From a virus, in the IMG/VR virus record IMGVR_UViG_3300048836_000092, positions 1-32,747 of that record: DNA of 32,747 nucleotides; one strand, written 5' to 3'. Shown piece after piece: positions 4,475 through 32,386 of this stretch. Below the pieces are notes generated by a model that was not told where the DNA came from, made no database searches, and saw only the letters and a list, made by a program, of their open reading frames with translations. Each line of letters begins with the position of its first letter. Within the stretch, counting starts at the first letter, position 1. The position numbers and the translations under genes are program-made.

Positions 4475-6433
4475 TTAAGACTTGCGAATAGTCGCTAACT
4501 CGGCTTCGACCGCCTCGAACATATCTAGTAATGAATCTGGGGTAGCTTCTGGTTCGTGGTGGTGACTAGCTTCTTTTTTAGCTGGCGTCGCCTTGGCAGG
4601 TGGTTTAGCTTTTTCTTTAATTTCTTCTATTTCGTCCTGAACCTTGCGAATCTTGGCGCTGATTTCTTCTTTACGGTTAAAAATGTCTAGTTCTTTTTTC
4701 GCTTGGGCTTGTGGGTCTAACTTAATGCCTTTTGCTTTTGCTTCCAGTAGTTCGCGTCTAACCTGTGCATTAAACGCCCGCGCTTCTTCTCGAAGTGCTT
4801 TAACCTCTGCGCGTTTCTTAGTTAGTGCTGGGTTTGCGGCTTTCCCCTTGGCTTTTTTCTTAGGTGCATTGAGTTTTTTACCGCCCTTGGCTTGCAACTT
4901 TTTAAGTGCCTCGCTGATTTTCTTCTTGTGTTCGTCTGAAAGTGGTACACCCTTCGCCATTTTTAAGGTTTTCATAAATTTATACATACCTTCCCCATAG
5001 GTGAACTTAAACGTATTGGGGGTTTTGCCGTTTCTGAATGCGGCTACTGCTTCTTCGATTTCTTCGTCGGTAGGTTCTTCTTCGTCTAAACTTTCGTCTA
5101 AAACTTCGTCTTCGTCGTCTAAACTGGCTACCATGCTTTCGACGTCGCTATCAAGTTCGGCTAACATACCGTCGGCCATAGCTGGGTCTGATGTAACCTC
5201 GCCTGTAAATTCTGGCAAGTCCATAGCGTCGCGTAGGTAATCTTCAAGGTGTGAATCGACGGTTAATACTCCCGTTTGAATACCGCGCTGTAGTGCTGTG
5301 GTTAGCGCGTTTACATCTACCGTACCGATTTTGTCATAAATAAGAGTGGGGTACTTGTCGGTAACGAAGTTAAAATTAACTAAGTCTTCGATTAAATACT
5401 TATTGATTGTCTGGGCTACGTGCTTGGCGACATATTCCAGCGCCATTAAAAAGAAGGTGTTACTACCCTTGAACAGTGCGAAGCTACCAACTGAACCGCT
5501 ACCCATTTGCATAAAGGTAGCCAGCACGTTTAACATGATCGCCCATTCTTGGCGTTTAATGAAGTCGTTAGGATTCTTGATACTGTTAGATTTCATATCT
5601 AACATACCTACTTCGAAGTCGTTCGGGAATCTTAAAAAGCCTTCTGCATTTGCTCTAAAGTTGCGTAGGATTTCGTCTAGTTTGGCTTCTTCTTCTGGGG
5701 TGGCGTTCGTTCCAGTCTTACCATAAGGCACACCCAGGCCGTGACGCTCCATAGCCATAATTTCGATTAGTTCGGCTTTATCCTTAAATAACCAATGCTT
5801 CCAGGCAGACCGCAAGATACTTTTACCTTCCCAGTTATCGCCTTCCTTCTCATTGACGAAGATAATCAGTTTTTCCATTGGAATTTGAAACACACCGTTA
5901 GTAGTGGTTTGCTCGACGCCGTTAGCCCCGCCCTTCATTTCCCATCGACTAATAGTTCGAGGGTGACGCTGTGCCAGTTTCTTTAATCCGATCTTACCGT
6001 CGTCTAAGAATTTCCATATTTTCTCGAATGGCATAACGCCGTAGTCGAGGTGTAGCAGAATGTTTGTTAGCGTTTCTTGCCATGTGCGGGTAGGTTCATT
6101 AAATAATTGTTGCTCTACAAACTCCGCTATCTGTCGGTCTTCTCGCTTTTCACTAGCTGGCTGAATAGTCCAGTTTGCGCTTAATAGTGGCAATTTCACC
6201 ACCTTTAACGAAGCCTGTACGTGTGCGTCACCTAATCGCATTTCGTCGTACTGTTGTATGCGTCGTGTGCCTTGTAGCTTTGGGTTATATTCGTGTCCTG
6301 CAATAATGCCATTAAACATTAACGAAGCGTCGCCGATCTCTTTAGTATTTTTAGGTGGGTGTGGCTTGGGTGGTTGTGCTGAAAGTGCGCCCATTTTGTT
6401 TTCAGGTCGTTTATTGTTTGTAGGTTTTGCCAT
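4475..6433 (-). CDS. Portal protein (DUF935 / Mu gp29-like) with long C-terminal extension
   Basis: 652 aa. Residues about 30-420 follow the Mu gp29-like portal pattern: RLGDAHVQASLKVVKLPLLS, LLHLDYGVMPFEKIW, WEGKSILRSAWKHW, and FMQMGSGSVGSFALFKGSNTFF. Portals form the dodecameric DNA channel at one capsid vertex. Beyond residue 425 there is an unusual 225-residue tail: an acidic segment (about 425-465), a NUMOD3-like helix motif GVPLSDEHKKKISEALKKL (495-513), a Lys/Ala-rich region (515-545), a coiled coil (545-610) and a short SHHHEPEA region. Gp29-type portals I know end near 450-530 residues, so the extension is notable. The MuF gene follows as TAATATG. Confidence 0.88.
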   Translation of the reverse strand: MAKPTNNKRPENKMGALSAQPPKPHPPKNTKEIGDASLMFNGIIAGHEYNPKLQGTRRIQQYDEMRLGDAHVQASLKVVKLPLLSANWTIQPASEKREDRQIAEFVEQQLFNEPTRTWQETLTNILLHLDYGVMPFEKIWKFLDDGKIGLKKLAQRHPRTISRWEMKGGANGVEQTTTNGVFQIPMEKLIIFVNEKEGDNWEGKSILRSAWKHWLFKDKAELIEIMAMERHGLGVPYGKTGTNATPEEEAKLDEILRNFRANAEGFLRFPNDFEVGMLDMKSNSIKNPNDFIKRQEWAIMLNVLATFMQMGSGSVGSFALFKGSNTFFLMALEYVAKHVAQTINKYLIEDLVNFNFVTDKYPTLIYDKIGTVDVNALTTALQRGIQTGVLTVDSHLEDYLRDAMDLPEFTGEVTSDPAMADGMLAELDSDVESMVASLDDEDEVLDESLDEEEPTDEEIEEAVAAFRNGKTPNTFKFTYGEGMYKFMKTLKMAKGVPLSDEHKKKISEALKKLQAKGGKKLNAPKKKAKGKAANPALTKKRAEVKALREEARAFNAQVRRELLEAKAKGIKLDPQAQAKKELDIFNRKEEISAKIRKVQDEIEEIKEKAKPPAKATPAKKEASHHHEPEATPDSLLDMFEAVEAELATIRKS

Positions 6434-6456
6434 AGGTTGTATTCAGTATAACTAAA

Positions 6457-8175
6457 TTAAAATTTCATGTCCATTAGACCCGCGGTAATTGGTGCTTCTT
6501 TTTCGTTTTTTACTGCATTTCTGCGATATTCTTCGAATTTGTCGGCTTTTAAGTTCTTTTCTATCGTTTTTTCTGGTAAATGTTTACCTGCCCGTCGTAA
6601 CCAGTTACGCTCTAAGTCTGCGCCGATTGCTAGCAATAAGTACCGTAAAGCGTCTGGGCCGTGGTCGTCTTCCTTTTTAGTGACTGTGTTCGACCATGTG
6701 CCGTTAGCATTCTTGCGCCACTGGTAACTAAGTATCTCCATTCGAAGATTAACACACTTCGACGTAATCATTATACGACCAGCCCGCATAAACTTTTTAA
6801 CAATCGGTATAGAGTTTTGCAGTAGGTACAGTTTCGCTTCTTTATTATCTGGCAAGACTGGCGCACCTCTTACCTTGCGTTCGTGGATTAATGCCAGGTT
6901 GTGAGGGTCGCAAGCCCACCCGCGAATATTACCCTGTATTCCCTTGGGTTTGTTTGGTAACTCTAAATTGTATGGCGCTAGTATTTCGTTTGCGGCTTCC
7001 CATATTTCATCTGTACCGCGGTCGTCTACGTACAATTCGTCGAACACTACTAGGCGGTCGAACGTCGTCGGTATCCAGACTGGTAGTATTACGTTTGGGT
7101 GGCCTTCACTGTGTCCGAAGTCTTCGGCAAGATAAATATAACCGCGTTCTGGTGGCTTCCATAAGTCCATACCTTCATCTGGTGTAATCAAGTTATTTTC
7201 GTCGCTGTAGGCAGTACCGTAAATAATGCCTTGCAGTCCAGGGCGACTACATACCCACTCTGTAGCCCATACTTCATCTTCAAGGTTTAATTTTTTGTCG
7301 ATTAAATCTTCCCAGTCGTAGTAGCCGTTAGCTTGGTCGATGTCCTCTGGCAATTCATCGCCGAACACTCTTTTAATTCGCTCCATTAATTCGGGGTTAT
7401 TAACTGGCAGTGGCGCGACTACTTCCCAGATATTCCAGAAGTACACCGCATAACCTTTAGTGGCCGCTTCGTCTAACATTCTCTGCATTACGCCACCTGC
7501 AAATTTACGGGTACTAGTTAAAACTGTTCTAGCCCGAACGCCTTTTTTTGACTGCGGCATACTTAACCCTTGCTGTAGGATTTGCCACGGCATTAGGTCG
7601 ATTTCGTCGAAAAATGCTAATTGAGGGTGGGGCGAATTAACACCAGACATAGTACCCGCTAGTACTTGGTACTTTGAACCGTTTTTAAGTTCGGTCTGGC
7701 GCATGGTGAAGCTAGTTACATTAAATGCGAATGGGAATAGGGAACTAAACGACTGAAAGTATTCGTAGCTTTTTAATGCCTGTTGCTGAATTGCGCCAAC
7801 TGTCGCGATTTCTGTATCGTCGTTTACGAATGAAAGAATAGTAGCCAAGATACCGAAAATAAAAGTTTTGCCGCCTGAACGGTTAGCCATGACGACGGCG
7901 AATGTGATTAGTCCGAATAGATAATCTGCTACGAAGTCGAACGGTGCTTTATGGCCTTCGGTAATTACCACCCGCGGTATATTTACCTTCATGTAAAAAA
8001 GTATCCAGTCGTGAAGGGCGTCGCGGTCTTGGCGTTCGATAATACCGACTAATATTTCTTTTGCGTTTAGTCGTGCTTCTTCTGTTTCGGTTTGTACGCC
8101 ATATGTCGCATTCCCATAATCTGCGCCACGTGTCGCACTAACGCTATTTACTGGTATTTTTTTTACTTTCGACAT
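6457..8175 (-). CDS. terL: Terminase large subunit
   Basis: 572 aa, the packaging motor. Walker A is ANRSGGKT (residues 97-104), Walker B LAFFDEID (186-193), and coupling motif III is LTSTRKF (219-225). The C-terminal RNase H-like nuclease carries AEDFGH (Asp352), ACDPHN (Asp423) and DDHGPDALR (504-511), providing the acidic metal ligands. The length is normal for the family. The start overlaps the small-subunit gene by 32 nt, and a CACGTG-type site (8123-8136) lies in the first codons. Confidence 0.93.
   Translation of the reverse strand: MSKVKKIPVNSVSATRGADYGNATYGVQTETEEARLNAKEILVGIIERQDRDALHDWILFYMKVNIPRVVITEGHKAPFDFVADYLFGLITFAVVMANRSGGKTFIFGILATILSFVNDDTEIATVGAIQQQALKSYEYFQSFSSLFPFAFNVTSFTMRQTELKNGSKYQVLAGTMSGVNSPHPQLAFFDEIDLMPWQILQQGLSMPQSKKGVRARTVLTSTRKFAGGVMQRMLDEAATKGYAVYFWNIWEVVAPLPVNNPELMERIKRVFGDELPEDIDQANGYYDWEDLIDKKLNLEDEVWATEWVCSRPGLQGIIYGTAYSDENNLITPDEGMDLWKPPERGYIYLAEDFGHSEGHPNVILPVWIPTTFDRLVVFDELYVDDRGTDEIWEAANEILAPYNLELPNKPKGIQGNIRGWACDPHNLALIHERKVRGAPVLPDNKEAKLYLLQNSIPIVKKFMRAGRIMITSKCVNLRMEILSYQWRKNANGTWSNTVTKKEDDHGPDALRYLLLAIGADLERNWLRRAGKHLPEKTIEKNLKADKFEEYRRNAVKNEKEAPITAGLMDMKF
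8123..8136. repeat. CACGTG palindrome-like site, copy 2 of 5
   Basis: GCGCCACGTGTCGC, one arm position off the perfect palindrome, at the 5' end of the large terminase gene. Confidence 0.75.
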
Positions 8176-9077: not shown

Positions 9078-9692
9078 TTATTTGAACCAGGCGTAATATT
9101 GCTCTTTTTTACCTTCGTCGTGAATAATTAGAAGGGGTAGCCCCGCTTTTAAGCGTTGCCAGTTTAATATCATTCTACCAGTGCGGCCGTTGCCGTCTGC
9201 GAATGGGTGAATCTGTTCGTATTGAATGTGTAGCTGTTTGGTGTCTTCGTCGATTCTTGAACCAGGATAATTTACTTGCAGGTTGGCACGTTCTACCCAG
9301 GCTTTCATTAAATCGGGTACGTGACGCCATTCGACACCTTCACCAGTAGCGACGAATTGCTTAATTAATCCTTTACCATCTGGCGTAATGCCGACTATTT
9401 TGTCGTAGCCGATTCGTACGTCGGTAGTGCGCCAGTAGCCGCGTTCGTTTGGTCGAAGCCGTTTAGCATGAAGCATTAATATTTTATGTAGCTTCAAGAT
9501 CGAACCGCCCGTTAATTTCTTTTCCGCCCATAGGTTATGCCAGGCTATTAGTGACTGCTTTAGGTTTTCTGGTGTGTCTTCGCCTTCGATTGCGTTACTC
9601 TCTTTAATAAAATACTCGATTGCCATATCTGGGTTTAGATCAGGGCAGTAGTGACAATCGGGTAGGGTACAGACTGGCGGTAAGTATTGCAT
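9078..9692 (-). CDS. Fic/DOC family protein (probable AMP-transferase)
   Basis: 204 aa with the complete Fic motif HPFADGNGRTGR (residues 162-173), including catalytic His162 and the anion-binding glycine-rich loop. Family members transfer AMP or other phosphate-containing groups onto protein side chains. The N-terminus has SNAIEG (32-37), matching the autoinhibitory (S/T)xxxE(G/N) helix, so this looks like a class II, self-inhibited enzyme rather than a two-gene toxin-antitoxin. Cysteines 8, 13 and 16 could bind metal. It follows an 86-aa unknown gene. The target is unknown; host translation, replication or defence proteins are possible. Confidence 0.9.
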   Translation of the reverse strand: MQYLPPVCTLPDCHYCPDLNPDMAIEYFIKESNAIEGEDTPENLKQSLIAWHNLWAEKKLTGGSILKLHKILMLHAKRLRPNERGYWRTTDVRIGYDKIVGITPDGKGLIKQFVATGEGVEWRHVPDLMKAWVERANLQVNYPGSRIDEDTKQLHIQYEQIHPFADGNGRTGRMILNWQRLKAGLPLLIIHDEGKKEQYYAWFK

Positions 9693-10294: not shown

Positions 10295-11080
10295 TTACGC
10301 CTTTATAAAATGGTCTGTTAATATTTCGTGTCCGTCTTCGGTGACTAATACCATGTGTTCAAACATGGCGCTAAAACCATTGTCACGGGTTAAGATCGTC
10401 CAGCCGTCGCCAGATTGTTTACCGCCCCTATCCTTAAAACTTATAATAGGTTCGATACAAATTACCTCGCCCGCTTTTAGTGTTCGCATTCCGAAGCGCT
10501 GTAGGTACTGTTTATCGTGGCTGTAGAAGTTTGGTATAGTTGGTTCTTGGTGCATTTCTTCGCCGATACCGTGACCACTGAACACCTGGCACGTTACAAA
10601 TTTATTAGCCTGGGTGTACTTGTCGATTGCCTTACCGATATTAGTAACTAGCGCACCTGCTCTAACCTCATTTATTCCAATATAGACGGCGCGGTTAGCG
10701 TAGCGTAATAGTCGTTCGTGTTTTTCTTCGACTGAGCCGACGGGTACAGTTATCGCACAATCACCGCAAGCACCGTTAAATATTATGCCAATATCCAGGG
10801 TAATAATATCGCCTTCTTTTAGTGCGTAGTCGTCTGGTATGCCGTGGGCGATTTCGTTATTAACGCTTGTACACAATACGGCGGGGTAGGGGGTACTAGC
10901 CCAGTCTGGCTTATATCCAAGGTTGTAGGGCTTTGCCTGTAGCTTGTCTACCAGCCTGGCCGCGAAAAAGTCTAGTTCGTTTGTCGTTACGCCGACTTTA
11001 ACTTCTGCCGCTGTTTGTGCAATTATTGAACTGGCTACTAATGCCGCGTCCCTCATTTTTTGAATGTGTTCGTTATTCAT
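10295..11080 (-). CDS. map: Methionine aminopeptidase, type I
   Basis: 261 aa, full length for a type I enzyme (pita-bread fold). All expected metal ligands are present: Asp96 (TLDIGI), Asp107 (CGDCAI), His170 (SGHGIG), Glu210 (CIEPII) and Glu241 (FEHMVLV), with catalytic His79 (NNEIAHGIP) and His177. It should remove the initiator methionine from new proteins with small second residues, after deformylation. No peptide deformylase is seen in the window. Phage-borne copies are uncommon. The start overlaps the preceding gene's TGA (ATGA), placing it in the operon with the J-domain protein. Confidence 0.95.
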   Translation of the reverse strand: MNNEHIQKMRDAALVASSIIAQTAAEVKVGVTTNELDFFAARLVDKLQAKPYNLGYKPDWASTPYPAVLCTSVNNEIAHGIPDDYALKEGDIITLDIGIIFNGACGDCAITVPVGSVEEKHERLLRYANRAVYIGINEVRAGALVTNIGKAIDKYTQANKFVTCQVFSGHGIGEEMHQEPTIPNFYSHDKQYLQRFGMRTLKAGEVICIEPIISFKDRGGKQSGDGWTILTRDNGFSAMFEHMVLVTEDGHEILTDHFIKA

Positions 11081-11268
11081 ATATTTTTTAATTCTTCGTC
11101 TAGCATTTTACCAAGATAATCAAATATCATCTTACCCACGAATAATCTGCCGTAGTCTGTTAGTTCAATGTCTGGCGACTCTATGGATTCTACGCCAACT
11201 AAAAAAGTAATAGTTTCACCCGCTTTAATATCTCGCTTTGCTACGCCGATAGGCTTATCGTTCGACAT
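11077..11268 (-). CDS. Hypothetical protein, SAF-like N-terminus
   Basis: 63 aa. The N-terminal IGVAKRDIKAGETITF resembles the beta-clip motif of SAF-type domains, but it is too short for a firm call. The C-terminus is helical (VGKMIFDYLGKMLDEELK). It overlaps the J-domain gene by 14 nt upstream and the methionine aminopeptidase by 4 nt downstream. A GGAAA lies before the ATG. Confidence 0.6.
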   Translation of the reverse strand: MSNDKPIGVAKRDIKAGETITFLVGVESIESPDIELTDYGRLFVGKMIFDYLGKMLDEELKNI

Positions 11269-11770
11269 TTTTTTCCTTTCGAATAATCTCTATTGCTTTG
11301 TTTAGCTCTAACATTTTTTCTTCTGAACCTGTCGCGGTATCAGGGTGGGCGGTTCGGGCTTTGGCCTTAAATGCCGCTTCGATTACTTCCATTGGCTGAT
11401 TGTCGTACACTCCTAAAACTTCGTACGGGTTAAAAACCTCTGGGGCTTGAAGCTGTGCATATGCCGACTGCAATACTTCACCAATTCCGCGCCGTTCATT
11501 CATTCGCATAGACTCAATGGCAAGAAATAGTACCCGCAAGTTATCGACTGCCCTACTTTGTTTATTCATCATTAAAGAAACGGTTTTACCGTCTTTTTGG
11601 TACGTAAGGGTTACTGTTCGGTCTGCCTCTGCTTGGTTCATGCCTTCCAACCTAGCACCGCGGGGATAATTAGTATCCCAGTTACTTACTCCCCAGTTTT
11701 CAAATTCTGCGGCTAAGTCGTTTTGTGTAGCCGACCATGATTTAGGTGTCTTGATTTTGTACTCTCTCAT
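11255..11770 (-). CDS. J-domain (DnaJ-like) protein
   Basis: 171 aa. Residues about 114-166 form a J domain: NPYEVLGV, a helix, then the diagnostic HPD tripeptide (142-144) and a third helix. J domains stimulate the ATPase of Hsp70/DnaK and direct it to a substrate. No Gly/Phe linker or zinc region follows, so this is a type III co-chaperone. The N-terminal domain (RTVTLTYQKDGKTVSLMM, residues 51-68) is a separate beta-type fold. It could recruit host DnaK for replication, capsid assembly or relief of repression. It overlaps both neighbours by a few bases. Confidence 0.85.
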   Translation of the reverse strand: MREYKIKTPKSWSATQNDLAAEFENWGVSNWDTNYPRGARLEGMNQAEADRTVTLTYQKDGKTVSLMMNKQSRAVDNLRVLFLAIESMRMNERRGIGEVLQSAYAQLQAPEVFNPYEVLGVYDNQPMEVIEAAFKAKARTAHPDTATGSEEKMLELNKAIEIIRKEKNVER

Positions 11771-20414: not shown

Positions 20415-21620
20415 TTACTTTTTGATTTGACCGTCTTCGATCAAAATACCGACCTGCCCGTTATCCTCGACCCTCTCAATCCAGACTTGATAGTCTTCGG
20501 TCTTAGCCATTTCTTTAATAACGGCCATGTTATCGCTGTCGAGTAATGAACCGTCCATAATTCGCATTACCCTTAGTTTTGGATTCATCGACATAGCGAT
20601 AGCCAGACTTATTTTTAACTGCTCGGCGCTAGACAACTGGGTAAACGGCATGGCGTTAAACGTCACACCCTCGGCGTCGATGTTCAAGCCGTCGATAGGT
20701 AGCTTTGCCGACGTGATTAATTCGTCTTTTTGCTTTAGTAGCGCATTCATTTCGTCGGTTAGCTGTTGTTGCTCTACTGCTTTGGCGTTAGCTTTTTCTT
20801 GCGCTTCTACGCATTCTTTAGCCTGTTCGTACCTGCGGTTCATTTCGCCCGCACTAGCTAACCGTTCTTCTAGCTTGGTCGTGTCTACCTTCTTATACTT
20901 TTTAAGTTTCGCCTCGGCTTCTTTTAATTCCGCCTTGTGCCTTTTAATTTCGGCTTCCATTCTGGCTAGTTCTTTTTTGCCAGTTTCTAAAAACGCTTCG
21001 CCGTCTTCGATTAGGCGGTTATTCTGCTCTGCTTCTCGCAACTCATTCGCCACCGCCACCGTGTCTACTGGGGCTTTTGGGGCGTTTTCAGGTATCGAGG
21101 TACTAGCGGCGTGACCCTGTGCCGTTTTTAACTCCCTACCTACGAAAGTGCGTAATTCGTACTTACTTCTATAAGCGTTTTGTAATGCCTCGACGTCTTT
21201 AGCTAAACCGAGTACGTCTAGTAATATGCTTCGCTGTTCGGCGGGCTTCATGTTGGCGAATGCCAGCGGGTCGAATGCAATACGGCCGACAATTTCGTCT
21301 AGTAAAGTTTGAGGGCTGGCGAATTTAGCACCTTCTTTACTTAGTACCTCTAGTCTAGTAGTTCCCTTTTCGGTGAAAGTTCGAATTACTTTATAGTCGC
21401 CTAAGTCTATTTCGATACGCGCGTCTTCTTGACCGTCACGTACTGGCTTTGGCGTGTTTTTCAAGGCGTCTTTACCGCCTAGTGCAAACAGTATTGAATC
21501 TAACACACTACTTTTACCCTGTCCATTTTTGCCACTAATTACGATAGTGTTATCGGTTGGCGTAATGTCTATGGCTTTAATTTTCTTGACGTTCTCCGCC
21601 TTTAGGTTAATTATTTTCAT
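20415..21620 (-). CDS. AAA/SMC-like ATPase (Rad50/RecF-like)
   Basis: 401 aa. The N-terminus has the RecF/Rad50-like IINLKAENVKKIKAIDI and a Walker A, GKNGQGKSS (residues 30-38), with SVLDSILFALGG after it. The middle (about 195-300) is a coiled coil rich in Glu/Lys/Ala. The C-terminus carries QLSSAEQLKISLAIAMS (signature-like) and MRIMDGSLLDSD in the Walker B region, a form I recall from phage ATPases near recombination genes. It probably bridges or processes DNA ends together with the ERF/YqaJ pair. Overlaps the preceding gene by 4 nt. Confidence 0.85.
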   Translation of the reverse strand: MKIINLKAENVKKIKAIDITPTDNTIVISGKNGQGKSSVLDSILFALGGKDALKNTPKPVRDGQEDARIEIDLGDYKVIRTFTEKGTTRLEVLSKEGAKFASPQTLLDEIVGRIAFDPLAFANMKPAEQRSILLDVLGLAKDVEALQNAYRSKYELRTFVGRELKTAQGHAASTSIPENAPKAPVDTVAVANELREAEQNNRLIEDGEAFLETGKKELARMEAEIKRHKAELKEAEAKLKKYKKVDTTKLEERLASAGEMNRRYEQAKECVEAQEKANAKAVEQQQLTDEMNALLKQKDELITSAKLPIDGLNIDAEGVTFNAMPFTQLSSAEQLKISLAIAMSMNPKLRVMRIMDGSLLDSDNMAVIKEMAKTEDYQVWIERVEDNGQVGILIEDGQIKK

Positions 21621-22264: not shown

Positions 22265-22552
22265 TTAGTTAGGTTTCTTTTCGTTTTTAGGGTGTAATAA
22301 TTCTTCGTCTAGTAATGCGTTTTCCATGAGGCTAGCTATGCTGTGCTGGCTTACGTGTTCAAGTATTCCCCTGAACTTTTTAGAAACATTTATACAAGCC
22401 TCTAGGAACTGGGCGTAATGGCACTCGCTATCACTTCCTAGCGCGATTACCCGTACTTTGCCGTGTTCTGGTTGGTTATTGACCAAGACTATAGCGGTTT
22501 CTACACCGTGTTTTACTAATAGTCGTTCTAGGTCGGTTCTAAAGGTGTCCAT
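22265..22552 (-). CDS. Hypothetical protein
   Basis: 95 aa, alternating beta and helix (VETAIVLVNNQPEHGKVRVI, then FLEACINVSKKFRGILEHV). This resembles a compact alpha/beta fold, but no family is recognised. Confidence 0.6.
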   Translation of the reverse strand: MDTFRTDLERLLVKHGVETAIVLVNNQPEHGKVRVIALGSDSECHYAQFLEACINVSKKFRGILEHVSQHSIASLMENALLDEELLHPKNEKKPN

Positions 22553-22796: not shown

Positions 22797-23048
22797 TTAT
22801 TCCTCGGTAAACGCGCATTCTAGGCACGATTTATAACCTACTATTTCTAAATAGCCTATGCCGTCTGGGTGGCGATCTTCGTAAATCGGCTCTAACTCAC
22901 TGCCGCATTTTGAACATAGCCCGTTATCTTCGTTTACTTCTTTAGCGCAATCGGGGCAGTAATGATTAATGCCTATTTCTGTCATTATCGCGCTACTGTA
23001 TTCAGTCCCGCAGTTGTAACATTCGATAGCTCTAAGTTCTTCTGTCAT
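22797..23048 (-). CDS. Multi-zinc-ribbon protein, first gene of operator promoter 5
   Basis: 83 aa with four CxxC pairs (C10/C13, C31/C34, C45/C48, C75/C78), enough for two zinc ribbons. Such proteins bind nucleic acid or transcription machinery. As the first gene of an early operon, expressed from a likely leaderless mRNA (ATG 6 nt from the -10 box), it is a candidate regulator. No specific family recognised. Confidence 0.7.
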   Translation of the reverse strand: MTEELRAIECYNCGTEYSSAIMTEIGINHYCPDCAKEVNEDNGLCSKCGSELEPIYEDRHPDGIGYLEIVGYKSCLECAFTEE

Positions 23049-23090
23049 GGTTATATATTATCTGTTGTTACCCACCGTGTCAAGTGGGTA
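23049..23090 (-). promoter_or_regulatory. Operator-type leaderless promoter 5
   Basis: Minus strand: TTGACA (23078-23083), 17-nt spacer beginning CGGTGGGT, TAATAT (23055-23060), 6 nt, ATG. Perfect 7-bp arms TACCCAC (23069-23075) and GTGGGTA (23084-23090). A plus-strand promoter faces the other way about 26 bp to the right. Confidence 0.9.
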
Positions 23091-23112
23091 GTTTAGCCTG
23101 GTAGTTGAATAC

Positions 23113-23121
23113 TGCTATAAT
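23113..23121 (+). promoter_or_regulatory. Plus-strand extended -10 promoter
   Basis: TGCTATAAT: a perfect TATAAT (23116-23121) with the extended-10 TG one base upstream. No good -35 at 17 nt. It points toward the small terminator at 23142-23187. Confidence 0.55.
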
Positions 23122-23127
23122 GTCTTG

Positions 23128-23187
23128 TACCCTAATTCGACACCCGCTGGCTTTTCCCACCATAGAACTGCTAGCGGGTTTTCTTTT
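23128..23187 (+). ncRNA. Probable ~60-nt plus-strand small RNA
   Basis: The interval begins about 7 nt after a plus-strand TATAAT and ends in a hairpin (ACCCGCTGGC / GCTAGCGGGT, one mismatch) with TTTTCTTTT. There is no ORF. It is the only plus-strand transcription unit I can support. The 18-nt loop contains CCCACC, similar to the operator arm. It could be a regulatory RNA or a remnant; expression is unproven. Confidence 0.5.
23142..23187 (+). terminator. Plus-strand intrinsic terminator
   Basis: ACCCGCTGGC (23142-23151) pairs with GCTAGCGGGT (23170-23179), followed by TTTTCTTTT. On the minus strand no T-tract follows, so it works only rightward. Confidence 0.7.
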
Positions 23188-23192
23188 ATCCC

Positions 23193-23273
23193 ACGAAAAA
23201 ACCGCCCTTTAGTCCCCTGGCGAAAAAACTCGGTAACTCTACCAAGTATTCGGTAAGGGGCTAAAAAGCGGTC
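23193..23273 (-). terminator. Nested double terminator closing the lysis operon
   Basis: Minus strand: an inner hairpin ACTTGGTA-GAGT-TACCGAGT (23228-23247) followed by TTTTT lies inside an outer imperfect stem. The outer arms are 23257-23273 and 23200-23217, and the second arm is followed by TTTTTTCG. Two stop signals in succession make strong insulation from the early operon downstream. Confidence 0.8.
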
Positions 23274-23281
23274 TTATAAAA

Positions 23282-23317
23282 AGTTTAGTGTAGTTTATCC
23301 TAGTTTACTATAACTTA
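23282..23317. repeat. 10-bp-phased AGTTTA repeats
   Basis: AGTTTA begins at 23282, 23292 and 23302, with a variant AACTTA at 23312: exactly one helical turn apart. They lie between the last lysis gene and its terminator. Single copies of AGTTTA also sit beside operator promoters 4 and 5 and near promoter 1. The phasing suggests protein binding on one DNA face. Confidence 0.55.
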
Positions 23318-23325
23318 GCGTAAAC

Positions 23326-23682
23326 TTACTTTTTGACGTCTGTACGTAGGGTGATTGGCGCGGTTGTCTTGGCGCGTAAGTAAAGGTTAGCCAATGTGTA
23401 GAACTGAGTAACCACCGTAATAATTCTGGTTACACTCTCTGGGTCTTCGGTGAATACTCTAACGATTGGTTCAAGCAGATTAGCGCCGAATACCAAGTCT
23501 AGCAACTGCAATACTGTAGCGGCCACCAATAAAGCACCGTTTACGATCACTGTAACGCTTTGTTTCCAGTTCTTCGCTTCCACTACGACGCGCTGTTCAG
23601 GTTGTAGCGTTTGAAGCTGTTCTACGACTGGCTGATCTGGTAGCGGTCTTGCTCTGTAGTCTGTTGGTTTTTCTTCTGCCAT
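23326..23682 (-). CDS. Two-helix membrane protein, candidate holin
   Basis: 118 aa. After a polar Pro/Gln-rich N-terminus there are two hydrophobic segments, about residues 45-67 (VTVIVNGALLVAATVLQLLD) and 85-103 (RIITVVTQFYTLANLYL), and a basic tail. It follows the amidase gene directly, with the stop and start 1 nt apart, and ends at a strong terminator. Holins often pair with the endolysin in this way. The helices are only moderately hydrophobic, so the call rests on context. Confidence 0.6.
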   Translation of the reverse strand: MAEEKPTDYRARPLPDQPVVEQLQTLQPEQRVVVEAKNWKQSVTVIVNGALLVAATVLQLLDLVFGANLLEPIVRVFTEDPESVTRIITVVTQFYTLANLYLRAKTTAPITLRTDVKK

Positions 23683-23683
23683 A

Positions 23684-24469
23684 TTATTTAATTCCTAACA
23701 TTTTTTTAATGATGTCTGTAATTTCGTTAAAGTTATTTTTAGTTTCGTCTAATCCGTCTATCATGGTTCGAATTTCTGATAGCTTCATATTCCCGTATTC
23801 TCTATCGCCGATTTTACCCAGGGCTATAACCGCGTTCGGGTCGTTAATTACGACGGGCTGTTCTGGCACTGGTTGGGGTAATGGCGTTGGCTCTGGGGCT
23901 GGCTGTGGCTCTGGCTCTGGTAGAGGCTGTGGGCTGTAGACGCGCCTATCACGAATGCGGTCGTACATATCATTAGGCCAAGAAGTACCAGGGCAAGCGG
24001 TAGCCTGTTCGTCTTTATGTCCTCGAACCTGTGACCAATCTTTAAGAGTTGGTAGGCTTGGGGTTTCAGTTAAAAAGAACTTGCATAAATCATGGGCGCT
24101 TCTGATCTGTTCGTCACTCGGTAGGTGCTTGGTAAAGTCGCCGACCATTGTAATACCGATAAACTTTTCGTTCTTATTGAGTACGTGGGCGCGGGCTGTC
24201 GAAATATCACCGCAATAATGTACTATGCCGTCCTTCGTAATAACAAAATGATAGCCAATACCAGCCCACCCACGGGCTTTATGCAGTAAAGCTATGTCGT
24301 CGGGGGTTGCGTCGTGCTTGGTTACGGTGTGGTGAATTAAGATACCTGTTAGCTGTGACCAGGGACGTACCCATGACCAGTTAAAAGAATCGCCCCAGAT
24401 ACCTTGACGATAATCGTGCCACTTACCACGTTCAATTAGTGTTTTTGGGTAAAGCGGGGTATTAGCCAT
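23684..24469 (-). CDS. N-acetylmuramoyl-L-alanine amidase endolysin (Amidase_2/PGRP)
   Basis: 261 aa. Residues about 35-175 form an Amidase_2 domain with zinc ligands His46 or His47 (LIHHTVT), His151 (VRGHKD) and Cys159 (ATACPGTSWP), plus Tyr73 (GIGYHF). It would cut the amide bond between muramic acid and the stem peptide. A Pro/Glu/Gln linker (about 182-207) leads to a 50-residue helical C-terminus of unknown role, perhaps wall binding or oligomerisation. No signal peptide, so a holin or similar is needed for release. Its ATG overlaps the stop of the 52-aa gene as TAATG. Confidence 0.95.
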   Translation of the reverse strand: MANTPLYPKTLIERGKWHDYRQGIWGDSFNWSWVRPWSQLTGILIHHTVTKHDATPDDIALLHKARGWAGIGYHFVITKDGIVHYCGDISTARAHVLNKNEKFIGITMVGDFTKHLPSDEQIRSAHDLCKFFLTETPSLPTLKDWSQVRGHKDEQATACPGTSWPNDMYDRIRDRRVYSPQPLPEPEPQPAPEPTPLPQPVPEQPVVINDPNAVIALGKIGDREYGNMKLSEIRTMIDGLDETKNNFNEITDIIKKMLGIK

Positions 24470-28193: not shown

Positions 28194-29252
28194 TTATTTA
28201 ACTTTGTTTGATACTAACCCGATACTTTGGGGGGTAGCCATAGTAAAGGTTCGTTCTACCACCCGATACGTTTCGTCGTTAATTGCTAAGTCTGGGTAGT
28301 TTGCCCGAATAGTGTCACCTAAATTATAGTCGCTGTAAGCTATCGCGTCGTCGTAGTGGCTTAAACTGTCTAACTCCACTGGCGGGCTACTTCCTTCTGC
28401 TAATCTGGCGTCGCCTTTATCTTGAAGCGTGGCCGCCTCTGAAACGTCGCGGGCTTCTAGCTTTTCTTCGAGTGTGCCGAATGGGGTACGTAGTGCGGTA
28501 CTGGCTGTTCTAGTTTCGAATTGTACGTCTTCGTTAAATCCTTCACCTACCGCATAGACTATATTCGCCATGTTAAGAATTAATTGTTTTTTGTACTTCC
28601 AGCTTGCGGCGGTTCGTTCATCGAAAGTAATCGTAGGTCGGTCTTGCCCTCTGGTTGGATAGTACACATTAAAAGCCTTGGTGTTGTCTATTTCGAAGTC
28701 GAAGCCGTCGGCTAAGTTGTTATTTGATAGCCGTACGATTGATTCGTACACGTTGTCGAATAAGTAGCGTCGGTCGCGGTTCTTACTTGCGGTAATACTA
28801 CCCTCGGTGATTCCCCAGTCTGAATATGGGGCGTCGTCCAGTTGTGAATTATCTATTAAAGTCCAGGCAATCTCGCCCGCGTCGGTTGCGCTAAACACTT
28901 CTTCGACGCCAATACCTACTAATCGTTTCTTGAATAGACCGAAGAACCCCATAGCCTTAACTGATAGATTCTTTTCACCTACGCCACCTGGCGCGACTTC
29001 AAAGTCGGTAATTATTCCATAAAATATCTTCGCTCCGTTGCGGTTAATGTAGATTTCTCTAAGTGCCGATGTGAATATAGCCAGTACCGTAGTGCCGTTT
29101 CGTTCCGCCATTTTCTTTAGTTCTTCGAACGAAAAAGTAAAACTAGCCGTAGGCTCTAGGTTCAATTTCTCAGTAAAATTATACGATTTAGGTATTACTT
29201 CCCATATCGTGCCTGTCGCTGGGTCTTTAATGATTACTTCGTACGTTGCCAT
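28194..29252 (-). CDS. Tail-tip hub protein (Tal / Gp37-like)
   Basis: 352 aa. Features of siphovirus Tal-like hub proteins: YEVIIKDPATGTIWEVIP, FTEKLNLEPTASFTFSFEEL, YINRNGAKIFYGIITDFEV, and a late LGDTIRANYPDLAINDETYRV beta domain. It follows Dit and forms the tail-tip cap through which DNA exits. It lacks a long lysozyme-type C-terminal extension. Confidence 0.75.
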   Translation of the reverse strand: MATYEVIIKDPATGTIWEVIPKSYNFTEKLNLEPTASFTFSFEELKKMAERNGTTVLAIFTSALREIYINRNGAKIFYGIITDFEVAPGGVGEKNLSVKAMGFFGLFKKRLVGIGVEEVFSATDAGEIAWTLIDNSQLDDAPYSDWGITEGSITASKNRDRRYLFDNVYESIVRLSNNNLADGFDFEIDNTKAFNVYYPTRGQDRPTITFDERTAASWKYKKQLILNMANIVYAVGEGFNEDVQFETRTASTALRTPFGTLEEKLEARDVSEAATLQDKGDARLAEGSSPPVELDSLSHYDDAIAYSDYNLGDTIRANYPDLAINDETYRVVERTFTMATPQSIGLVSNKVK

Positions 29253-30127: not shown

Positions 30128-31789
30128 TTAGTTAGTTCTTAAAACATACGCCAATTCTCTAAATGCGAAGTCCATATCGACCCCACTATTAATAATTTGC
30201 GTTACCTCGATTGGTCGCTCACCCCCGCCGTTTGGCGAATACGGCGTTACCCTTGAACCAGGGGGCAGGTATACATTTTCTGGGCCTTGCTCTCCGACCC
30301 GTGCCATACCACCGCTAAAACTATCCGTACCGTTGGCAAGGTTGGGGATTGTGTTAATTTTAGTGTATCCTGGCACATTACTACCGATTGAGTTAGCACC
30401 GCTAATCATGCCATTAATAACATTAATGATGTCGTTTACCCTTCTTTTTACTTCGTTCACGATTGCGCTAAGAATACCGAATACCACCGTTTTAACTCCG
30501 TTCCAGACGTCACCCCATGTTAGCCCCATTTTCTCTAGCGCTACAGTCATTAAATCGAAGACGTTTTTAATCGGTAGCCAGAAGGTATTACGCAAGTAAG
30601 TAACGAATGCACCTAGTAGCGGTTTAATTAAGAAGTTCCAGACGTTTTGAAATATTTGCCATAGTGTCATTAGTACCGAACCTATCCAGTTAAATACATT
30701 GGTTAAGGTCGGCAGTACGTAGGTATTAAACCAATCGACTACGCCTAGCACGATGTCGCGAATGCCTAAAAAGTTATTCGTCCAGATCAGGTAGAGGGCG
30801 GCGACGGCCGCACCAATTAATACGAACGGTGCTAAAAATGCAATCATGCCAGTAACCGCCGCCCAGATAGCGGGTACTACTACTGTAGCCAAGGCAATAC
30901 CCATAGGAATAAGCGCACCAATGGTAAAGGCGATAAACGGTTCTTTATTTTCTACAATGAATGTACCTATTTTTTGAAGTCCTTCGGTAAACTTTTCAAT
31001 CGCCCCGCTGTCGAGTAGGAAGCCGTACAGTTGCGCCATGACAACATTTAAGCCGTTACCTATGGTTTCTTTTAACTTTGTCATTTCAATATCTAACTGC
31101 GCCTGTTTGTCGATCAATGTGCCAGTAAATCGCTCGGCGCTTCCCATAGTTAAGTTAGTTAAGTCCATCATTCCTTTTAATTTTGCCATGTCCTCGGTGA
31201 TGTCGCCCGCCGCTACGCCTTCTTTTAACAATGCTTCCTCACCTTTTTTAATGATGTCGCTAAAGTTTTCAGACACACCAGATAGATTACCCAGTGCCGA
31301 ATTATTAGTAGCATAGGCGAACGATAGGTTTTGTACGGCTTGACCGAGTGAGATAGAAGAAGACTTACCCGTTATGGCTTCGTTTGTAAAACGTCGCATT
31401 AGTTCGCCCGCGGTATCTAGGTCTAACCCTGATTTAAGCAGGTTTTGCAGGCCTTCGGCGGCCGCACCAGTACCGATACGAAGTTCTTCGCCCAATGCCT
31501 TAGCTGATTCCTGGGCTTTTGCCCCAGATTCACCGAACCGAGGCGCGATAATATCTAGCGTCGTCATGGCTTTAGCTAAGTCATTAGCGGCCTGGGAAGA
31601 TTCACCTAAAAACTGTTTGAGGTTGCCGACCATTTGCGAACCAAGATTAGCTAGTCCCATGCCTGCGGCAATCGTACCTATTTTTTGCATTGTACCGCCG
31701 AAGCCTGTTAGTTGCTTTTCGGTGTCCTGCAATCCCTTGCCGCTTGATTTGGTAATGATGTCTAGCTGAACTGGTTCTAATTTTGCCAT
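30128..31789 (-). CDS. Tail tape-measure protein
   Basis: 553 aa from MAKLEPVQLDI. I prefer this ATG to a GTG 18 nt upstream because it directly follows the chaperone stop (TAATATG). N-terminal helices and Gly/Ala-rich repeats are followed by 3-4 hydrophobic segments (about 285-345: AFTIGALIPMGIALATVVV, GMIAFLAPFVLIGAAVAAL) and a C-terminal NGTDSFSGGMARVGEQGPE, the diagnostic end of tape measures. At about 0.15 nm per residue it predicts a short tail of roughly 80 nm. Confidence 0.9.
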   Translation of the reverse strand: MAKLEPVQLDIITKSSGKGLQDTEKQLTGFGGTMQKIGTIAAGMGLANLGSQMVGNLKQFLGESSQAANDLAKAMTTLDIIAPRFGESGAKAQESAKALGEELRIGTGAAAEGLQNLLKSGLDLDTAGELMRRFTNEAITGKSSSISLGQAVQNLSFAYATNNSALGNLSGVSENFSDIIKKGEEALLKEGVAAGDITEDMAKLKGMMDLTNLTMGSAERFTGTLIDKQAQLDIEMTKLKETIGNGLNVVMAQLYGFLLDSGAIEKFTEGLQKIGTFIVENKEPFIAFTIGALIPMGIALATVVVPAIWAAVTGMIAFLAPFVLIGAAVAALYLIWTNNFLGIRDIVLGVVDWFNTYVLPTLTNVFNWIGSVLMTLWQIFQNVWNFLIKPLLGAFVTYLRNTFWLPIKNVFDLMTVALEKMGLTWGDVWNGVKTVVFGILSAIVNEVKRRVNDIINVINGMISGANSIGSNVPGYTKINTIPNLANGTDSFSGGMARVGEQGPENVYLPPGSRVTPYSPNGGGERPIEVTQIINSGVDMDFAFRELAYVLRTN

Positions 31790-31790
31790 A

Positions 31791-32386
31791 TTATTTTTTT
31801 CGCCCACTTGCCGACTGCTTCTGTTTCTGTTTGGCGCGTCGGTAGGATTCTTTAATATCTGTTTCTATACCAAGTATTTGCATATCTCTAACCATAACAT
31901 TATACGGCGTAAAGAATGCTTGCCAGTAGTCCAAGTTAAAAACTTGTCTATACCTTAATATTAACAGTTCGTGGGGTGGTTGGGGAAGCGTTACGCTGTC
32001 GGGATTGTCTGCGTGTTCTTTTATTGCTTCGGCAAGGAAGTAGTCGCTAAACTTTTTTTTTGAGCGTTGCCGATTCCAGCAAGTTCGTTATAGGCGTCTA
32101 CGTTACTTAAAATGAAGGTGAGGTCTTTTTGTGAAAGTCGGCGAACATTGTCTAGCGTTATGTCTTCTTTAGTACCGTCTTCTTTTTGGAAGTTCCAGTC
32201 TTTAATAATGTTCACAATTCCAGTAATCATAGCTAACCCGCGCTGTTCACCAGCGTTAGCCATCTGCTCTACGTCGCCAGATAAAGCCTCTACGTACACT
32301 TCTACCCATGCTGGGTCTTCTTTTGTCGATGAGGGTAAATCTAATTTCTTAGTAGTTCTTCGGGTTGTGTCTATGAGTTTCGGCAT
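31791..32386 (-). CDS. Tail assembly chaperone, -1 frameshift fusion (gpGT-like)
   Basis: At nine A's (32053-32061 on the minus strand) a -1 slip from CAA AAA AAA leads into a frame open for 87 codons with no start of its own, ending just before the tape measure. The fusion is 198 aa: 111 from the upstream frame plus KFSDYFLAEAIKEHA... This matches the lambda G/GT arrangement, where the two products chaperone the tape measure. The downstream part has LRYRQVFNLDYWQAFFTPYN and a basic tail (RRAKQKQKQ). Confidence 0.8.
32021..32386 (-). CDS. Tail assembly chaperone, in-frame product (gpG-like)
   Basis: 121 aa. Small, mixed charge, helical in the middle (VEALSGDVEQMANAGEQRG), immediately before the tape measure. 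It stops 10 codons after the slip site, giving the short partner of the G/GT pair. The ATG is 6 nt from the -10 box of operator promoter 6. Confidence 0.8.
   Translation of the reverse strand: MPKLIDTTRRTTKKLDLPSSTKEDPAWVEVYVEALSGDVEQMANAGEQRGLAMITGIVNIIKDWNFQKEDGTKEDITLDNVRRLSQKDLTFILSNVDAYNELAGIGNAQKKSLATTSLPKQ
32053..32061 (-). other. -1 ribosomal frameshift site
   Basis: Nine consecutive A's in the minus-strand message, read CAA AAA AAA AGT in the zero frame. A slip of one base gives AAA AAA AAG TTT. Homopolymeric A is a known slippery sequence. Transcriptional slippage or a sequencing error in the run are alternatives. Confidence 0.75.

Follow-up and report, generated by a model that had tools for sequence, protein, structure and literature searches.

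The virus record analysed here (32,747 bases from an uncultivated phage, referred to in full as the window) is likely to carry a plus-strand transcription unit that is complete in itself. It lies in the 277-base gap (23049-23325) between the end of the lysis genes and the zinc ribbon gene that opens the early region (Table 1). We suggest that transcription would begin near 23128, directed by an extended -10 element, and end at about 23186-23188, and that the product would be a ~60-nt untranslated RNA with a free tail of 14 nt and, behind it, a terminator hairpin whose loop has 18 nt. The unit is arranged back to back with the early promoter at 23083, and its 3' end meets the lysis operon terminator tail to tail. 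Our tentative preference, held at somewhat less than an even chance, is that this RNA would act in trans as a small RNA comparable in size to lambda OOP and P22 sar, whose tail or loop would pair with some phage or host transcript. The -10 element, the hairpin, the strand preference of the hairpin and the absence of a credible gene are evident in the sequence itself, and from these we infer the transcription of the unit and the trans-acting role. A regulatory role for the ~60-nt RNA is at present unsupported, and the unit may either yield a small RNA of about the length of OOP or sar or be no more than a terminator for divergent transcription, ordinary in kind either way.

Table 1 Features of the window and of the junctions in related contigs
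Feature	Position	Strand	Basis or remark
Extended -10 element TGCTATAAT	23113..23121	plus	direct sequence; unique in window
Terminator hairpin, 10-bp stem ACCCGCTGGC / GCTAGCGGGT, 18-nt loop, then TTTTCTTTT	23142..23179	plus	TTTCTTTTA directly after the stem
Predicted ~60-nt untranslated RNA	23128..23188	plus	fold; no credible ORF
Early promoter, TTGACACGGTGGGT element (-35 and spacer start) and -10 TAATAT	23055..23090	minus	
Long structured element ending TTTTTT	23194..23306	minus	fold -41.5 kcal/mol, z -7.1; covariance model match
Early region's first gene, 83-aa double zinc ribbon protein	22797..23048	minus	Pfam DZR 4.3e-07
118-aa protein after endolysin	23326..23682	minus	ORF and synteny; holin-like by position only
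Endolysin (amidase)	23684-24469	minus	PHROG 1493, 7.9e-25
SbcC-like protein	20415-21620	minus	
Erf and YqaJ recombination proteins		minus	
Capsid protein	747-1670	minus	
Portal	4475-6433	minus	
Terminase	6457-8175	minus	
Tape measure	30128-31807	minus	
352-aa tail-region protein	28194-29252		query in the search for relatives
Junction RNA, ~122-128 nt, lysis cassette to next gene	L007:7448-7574, L008:7407-7534, L135 ~6350-6465	plus	

The putative promoter has the form of a sigma-70 extended -10 (that is, TGN directly before TATAAT), and the start given above is predicted from a distance of 6-8 nt past the -10 of TGCTATAAT; upstream of this element, no good match to a -35 was found (TTTAGC/TTAGCC). 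Among the compact plus-strand terminators of the window the hairpin ranks first. It has the marks of an intrinsic terminator, a G+C-rich stem (10 bp, -20.5 kcal/mol) with a U-rich tract right behind it on the same strand, and it is weaker as minus-strand RNA (-17.6 kcal/mol) because a G.U pair turns into A.C. Folded as a whole, the RNA (23126-23188) reaches -21.1 kcal/mol, whereas its shuffles average -9.6 (z -4.6) and none of 200 was as good; its predicted layout is a single-stranded 5' tail of ~14 nt, the terminator hairpin and a U-rich 3' end. The unit escaped a consensus scan on account of its poor -35 and of a loop longer than 8 nt.

Could the -10 and the hairpin have been paired by accident, at a site without a role? 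TGNTATAAT occurs once in the window, both strands counted, and by itself is not significant because ~1.7 occurrences are expected per shuffled window; this expectation, together with the missing -35 and the lack of a homologue among the records searched, is what speaks for coincidence. However, the stability of the hairpin (z -4.6), its strand-specific G.U pair and the joint pattern make coincidence improbable: the window has a single case of TGNTATAAT with a terminator at least as strong as -18 kcal/mol within ~110 nt behind it, and none of 400 shuffled windows has one (2 of 400 do when the limit is relaxed to -15 kcal/mol), although this joint test was devised after the site had been seen and therefore means 'unlikely by chance' and not an exact probability. 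The extended -10 and the hairpin behind it that the first-pass annotation had placed at 23113-23187 are both confirmed (0/200 shuffles for the fold, 0/400 for the joint pattern). As regards coding potential, the only start codon in 23122-23188 is a TTG at 23125, which would open a 43-codon frame running through the terminator and was rejected as it begins ahead of the likely transcription start; a frame from ATG 23120 was also rejected, as it overlaps the -10 box and would be unreadable from the TGCTATAAT promoter. With no credible ORF, the untranslated plus-strand unit of ~60 nt that the annotation proposed near the minus-strand promoter (23083-23055) is well supported by sequence, and its product, if transcribed, would by its sequence fit the short, ORF-less, independent transcript of an OOP/sar-type small RNA.

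All genes with recognisable products lie on the minus strand and the plus strand has none anywhere in the window, which bears out the earlier claim that the supported protein genes are all on the opposite strand. As no recognisable plus-strand gene exists in the window, a terminator on this strand would have nothing to stop unless a transcript arose locally, which favours the candidate unit. It is quite possible, if still well short of an even chance, that the hairpin is instead punctuation: a plus-directed terminator that halts divergent or spurious transcription begun around the early promoter before it enters the endolysin/holin operon in antisense, with the short RNA, if made, a functionless by-product. 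The hairpin's position is precisely that between the early promoter and the lysis operon's end, where it forms a convergent pair of terminators (23142-23179, plus; 23276-23203, minus), a terminator on the opposite strand, though weaker, is present at the junction of the related contig L008 too, and at least one report describes divergent transcription from prokaryotic promoters as common (PMC10268837). Yet a perfect TGCTATAAT set for a 60-nt product exceeds the needs of insulation, and a well-defined tail and a loop of 18 nt are part of the predicted RNA. We place a trans-acting RNA slightly ahead of such punctuation, given the perfect extended -10 just upstream and the recurrence of RNA units at this junction in relatives.

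This recurrence comes from six contigs with related endolysins (L006, L007, L008, L134, L135 and L136), each of which contains its own version of the junction. These more distant relatives lack the opposite-strand pairing of an extended -10 with a terminator. In L007 and L008 the junction holds a gene-strand promoter and a ~127-nt structured RNA with 44 consensus pairs, seven of them changed on both sides and none broken; no Rfam match was obtained with the L008 region. L135 has a similar promoter-hairpin unit, and the covariance model of the junction RNA (R1) scores weakly at the syntenic site there (11.7 bits). Taken together, the covarying RNA and the L135 unit indicate that RNA units recur at the junction. 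In all three contigs the 5' tail is complementary to the hairpin interior over 11-12 bases (equalled by 1-3 of 500 shuffles), and as the letters differ in L135, this suggests a pseudoknot or a switch; tail-loop complementarity of the kind seen in L007 was not found in the window RNA.

The same model matches the window once, at 23306-23194 on the minus strand, weakly (21.7 bits, E 0.031 in 217 kb; E = 1e-4 when the search is limited to 801 bases around the junction) and in the same place as in the relatives. The fold at this position (23300-23195) is far stronger than the plus-strand hairpin (Table 1), which it faces tail to tail with ~15 bases between the 3' ends. The minus-strand element may be the lysis operon terminator, a distant counterpart of the L007/L008 junction RNA, or both. 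Like the candidate unit, the L007/L008 RNA has its own promoter and terminator and lies between the lysis cassette and the early genes, but it is on the other strand, ~127 nt long and different in structure, and its counterpart in the window is the element at 23306-23194. The evidence of conservation at the junction (that is, the covarying RNA and this match) thus belongs to the minus strand, beside the plus-strand hairpin, and the gene-strand structured RNA of the relatives is a stronger lead than the plus-strand ~60-nt RNA. A broader reading, which we regard as unlikely, is that the lysis/early junction is kept as a hot-spot for small RNAs and here holds a convergent regulatory pair, the ~60-nt RNA on the plus strand and an L007/L008-related RNA on the minus strand.

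Alternatively, the junction might act at the level of DNA, as a replication origin or protein-binding region for which any RNA is at most a primer or side effect. It is the largest structured intergenic region inspected, and just after the lysis operon it contains three AGTTTA hexamers at exactly 10-bp spacing (23282, 23292 and 23302), an arrangement that came up once when the intergenic region was shuffled 2000 times. Equally spaced triples, however, also occur in 10 of 650 window tiles, no initiator protein was recognised nearby, and in its U-tract and its preference for one strand the hairpin is like a terminator, so that we consider a DNA-level element very improbable.

The early promoter (TTGACA-17-TAATAT) ends 6 bases ahead of the ATG at 23048, making the transcript leaderless. 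Its TTGACACGGTGGGT element recurs, exactly or with 1 mismatch, at six minus-strand promoters of the window (near 46, 13653, 16525, 20086, 23071 and 32409), each with an ATG close behind and a leaderless or near-leaderless gene, and it also precedes genes in the related contigs L092 (9217) and L096 (2048). The element had been taken for an operator in a switch region, a view that the evidence does not support. The opposite palindrome arm is absent in L092 and L096 and the left arm CCCAC is intact at 3 of the 6 window sites, and because the second arm is missing or partial, TTGACACGGTGGGT is better named an asymmetric promoter motif, which may be the binding site of some regulator protein. The window ends (1 and 32747) lie ~7.4 kb apart in L096, with tail-region genes in between, and the record therefore lacks a segment of about 7 kb; the scanned proteins include no recognisable repressor or integrase, but with this portion missing that does not prove their absence. 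A lysis/lysogeny switch (that is, a repressor or integrase together with a symmetrical operator) was accordingly not recognised. The suggested kinship between the loop's CCCACC and the operator arm is at background level: the best 18-mer likeness between RNA and operator is 10/18, and 136 window positions score equally. What the sequence supports in the proposal of a regulatory RNA at the switch region is the short untranslated unit beside the early promoter; regulation and switch are unsupported.

A trans-acting RNA would be expected to pair with a target, and the first-pass annotation had proposed a search for base-pairing to leaderless mRNA 5' ends. Among 58 phage gene starts we found no significant pairing, with 19 of 300 shuffles as good for the tail and 142 of 300 for the loop. 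At the Rfam gathering threshold the window has 0 matches. NsiR1 (RF02399) gave a hit at 23099-23185 (plus) with 23 bits against a gathering threshold of 39 (E 0.034), a weak similarity that begins upstream of the predicted RNA start, and the RNA is not a member; OxyS and microRNA families, which appeared at relaxed thresholds, were judged chance matches. Lambda OOP is 77 nt and P22 sar 68/69 nt long (PMC12197685). Like OOP, the predicted RNA would be a short untranslated phage RNA with its own promoter, on the strand opposite its neighbours and near the early region. Whereas OOP is antisense to cII mRNA, the window RNA overlaps no gene and so cannot be cis-antisense to coding sequence in that manner; nor was a cII/cI-type switch recognised in the window or Rfam homology found. 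It resembles sar in size and as a short hairpin RNA, but sar pairs with ant mRNA and the window RNA has no complementary target among the 58 gene starts. If made, it would add another small RNA of OOP/sar size to those of phages, which by itself changes little, and as a simple, testable unit it could help to find out whether RNA is used by such phages at the late/early boundary.

Searches with the endolysin, SbcC-like, zinc-ribbon, holin-like and 352-aa proteins and with the operator motif returned no close relative reaching 23.1 kb, and L108, a near-identical contig, ends short of the site, at window position 22417. DNA comparison with GenBank phages gave no match, queries with the 352-aa and capsid proteins gave no prophage copy in bacterial genomes, and no cultured relative was present among the records searched. 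A scan for the pattern of a -10 followed by an ACCCGC...GCGGGTTTT hairpin returned six matches, which we take for ordinary terminators at gene ends; the context was examined for two of them (L130 and L132) and is unrelated.

The minus strand also encodes an M24 metallopeptidase of the methionine aminopeptidase type (10295-11080), a Fic-domain protein (9078-9692) and a DnaJ-domain protein (11255-11770), all phage-encoded. The palindrome-like motif TGCGCCACGTGTCGC is repeated, apparently mostly inside coding sequence, with 17 strand matches (at most 3 mismatches) against 0.6 expected, at positions that include 3691, 4207, 8122, 9920, 14913, 16905, 22634, 27124 and 28980.
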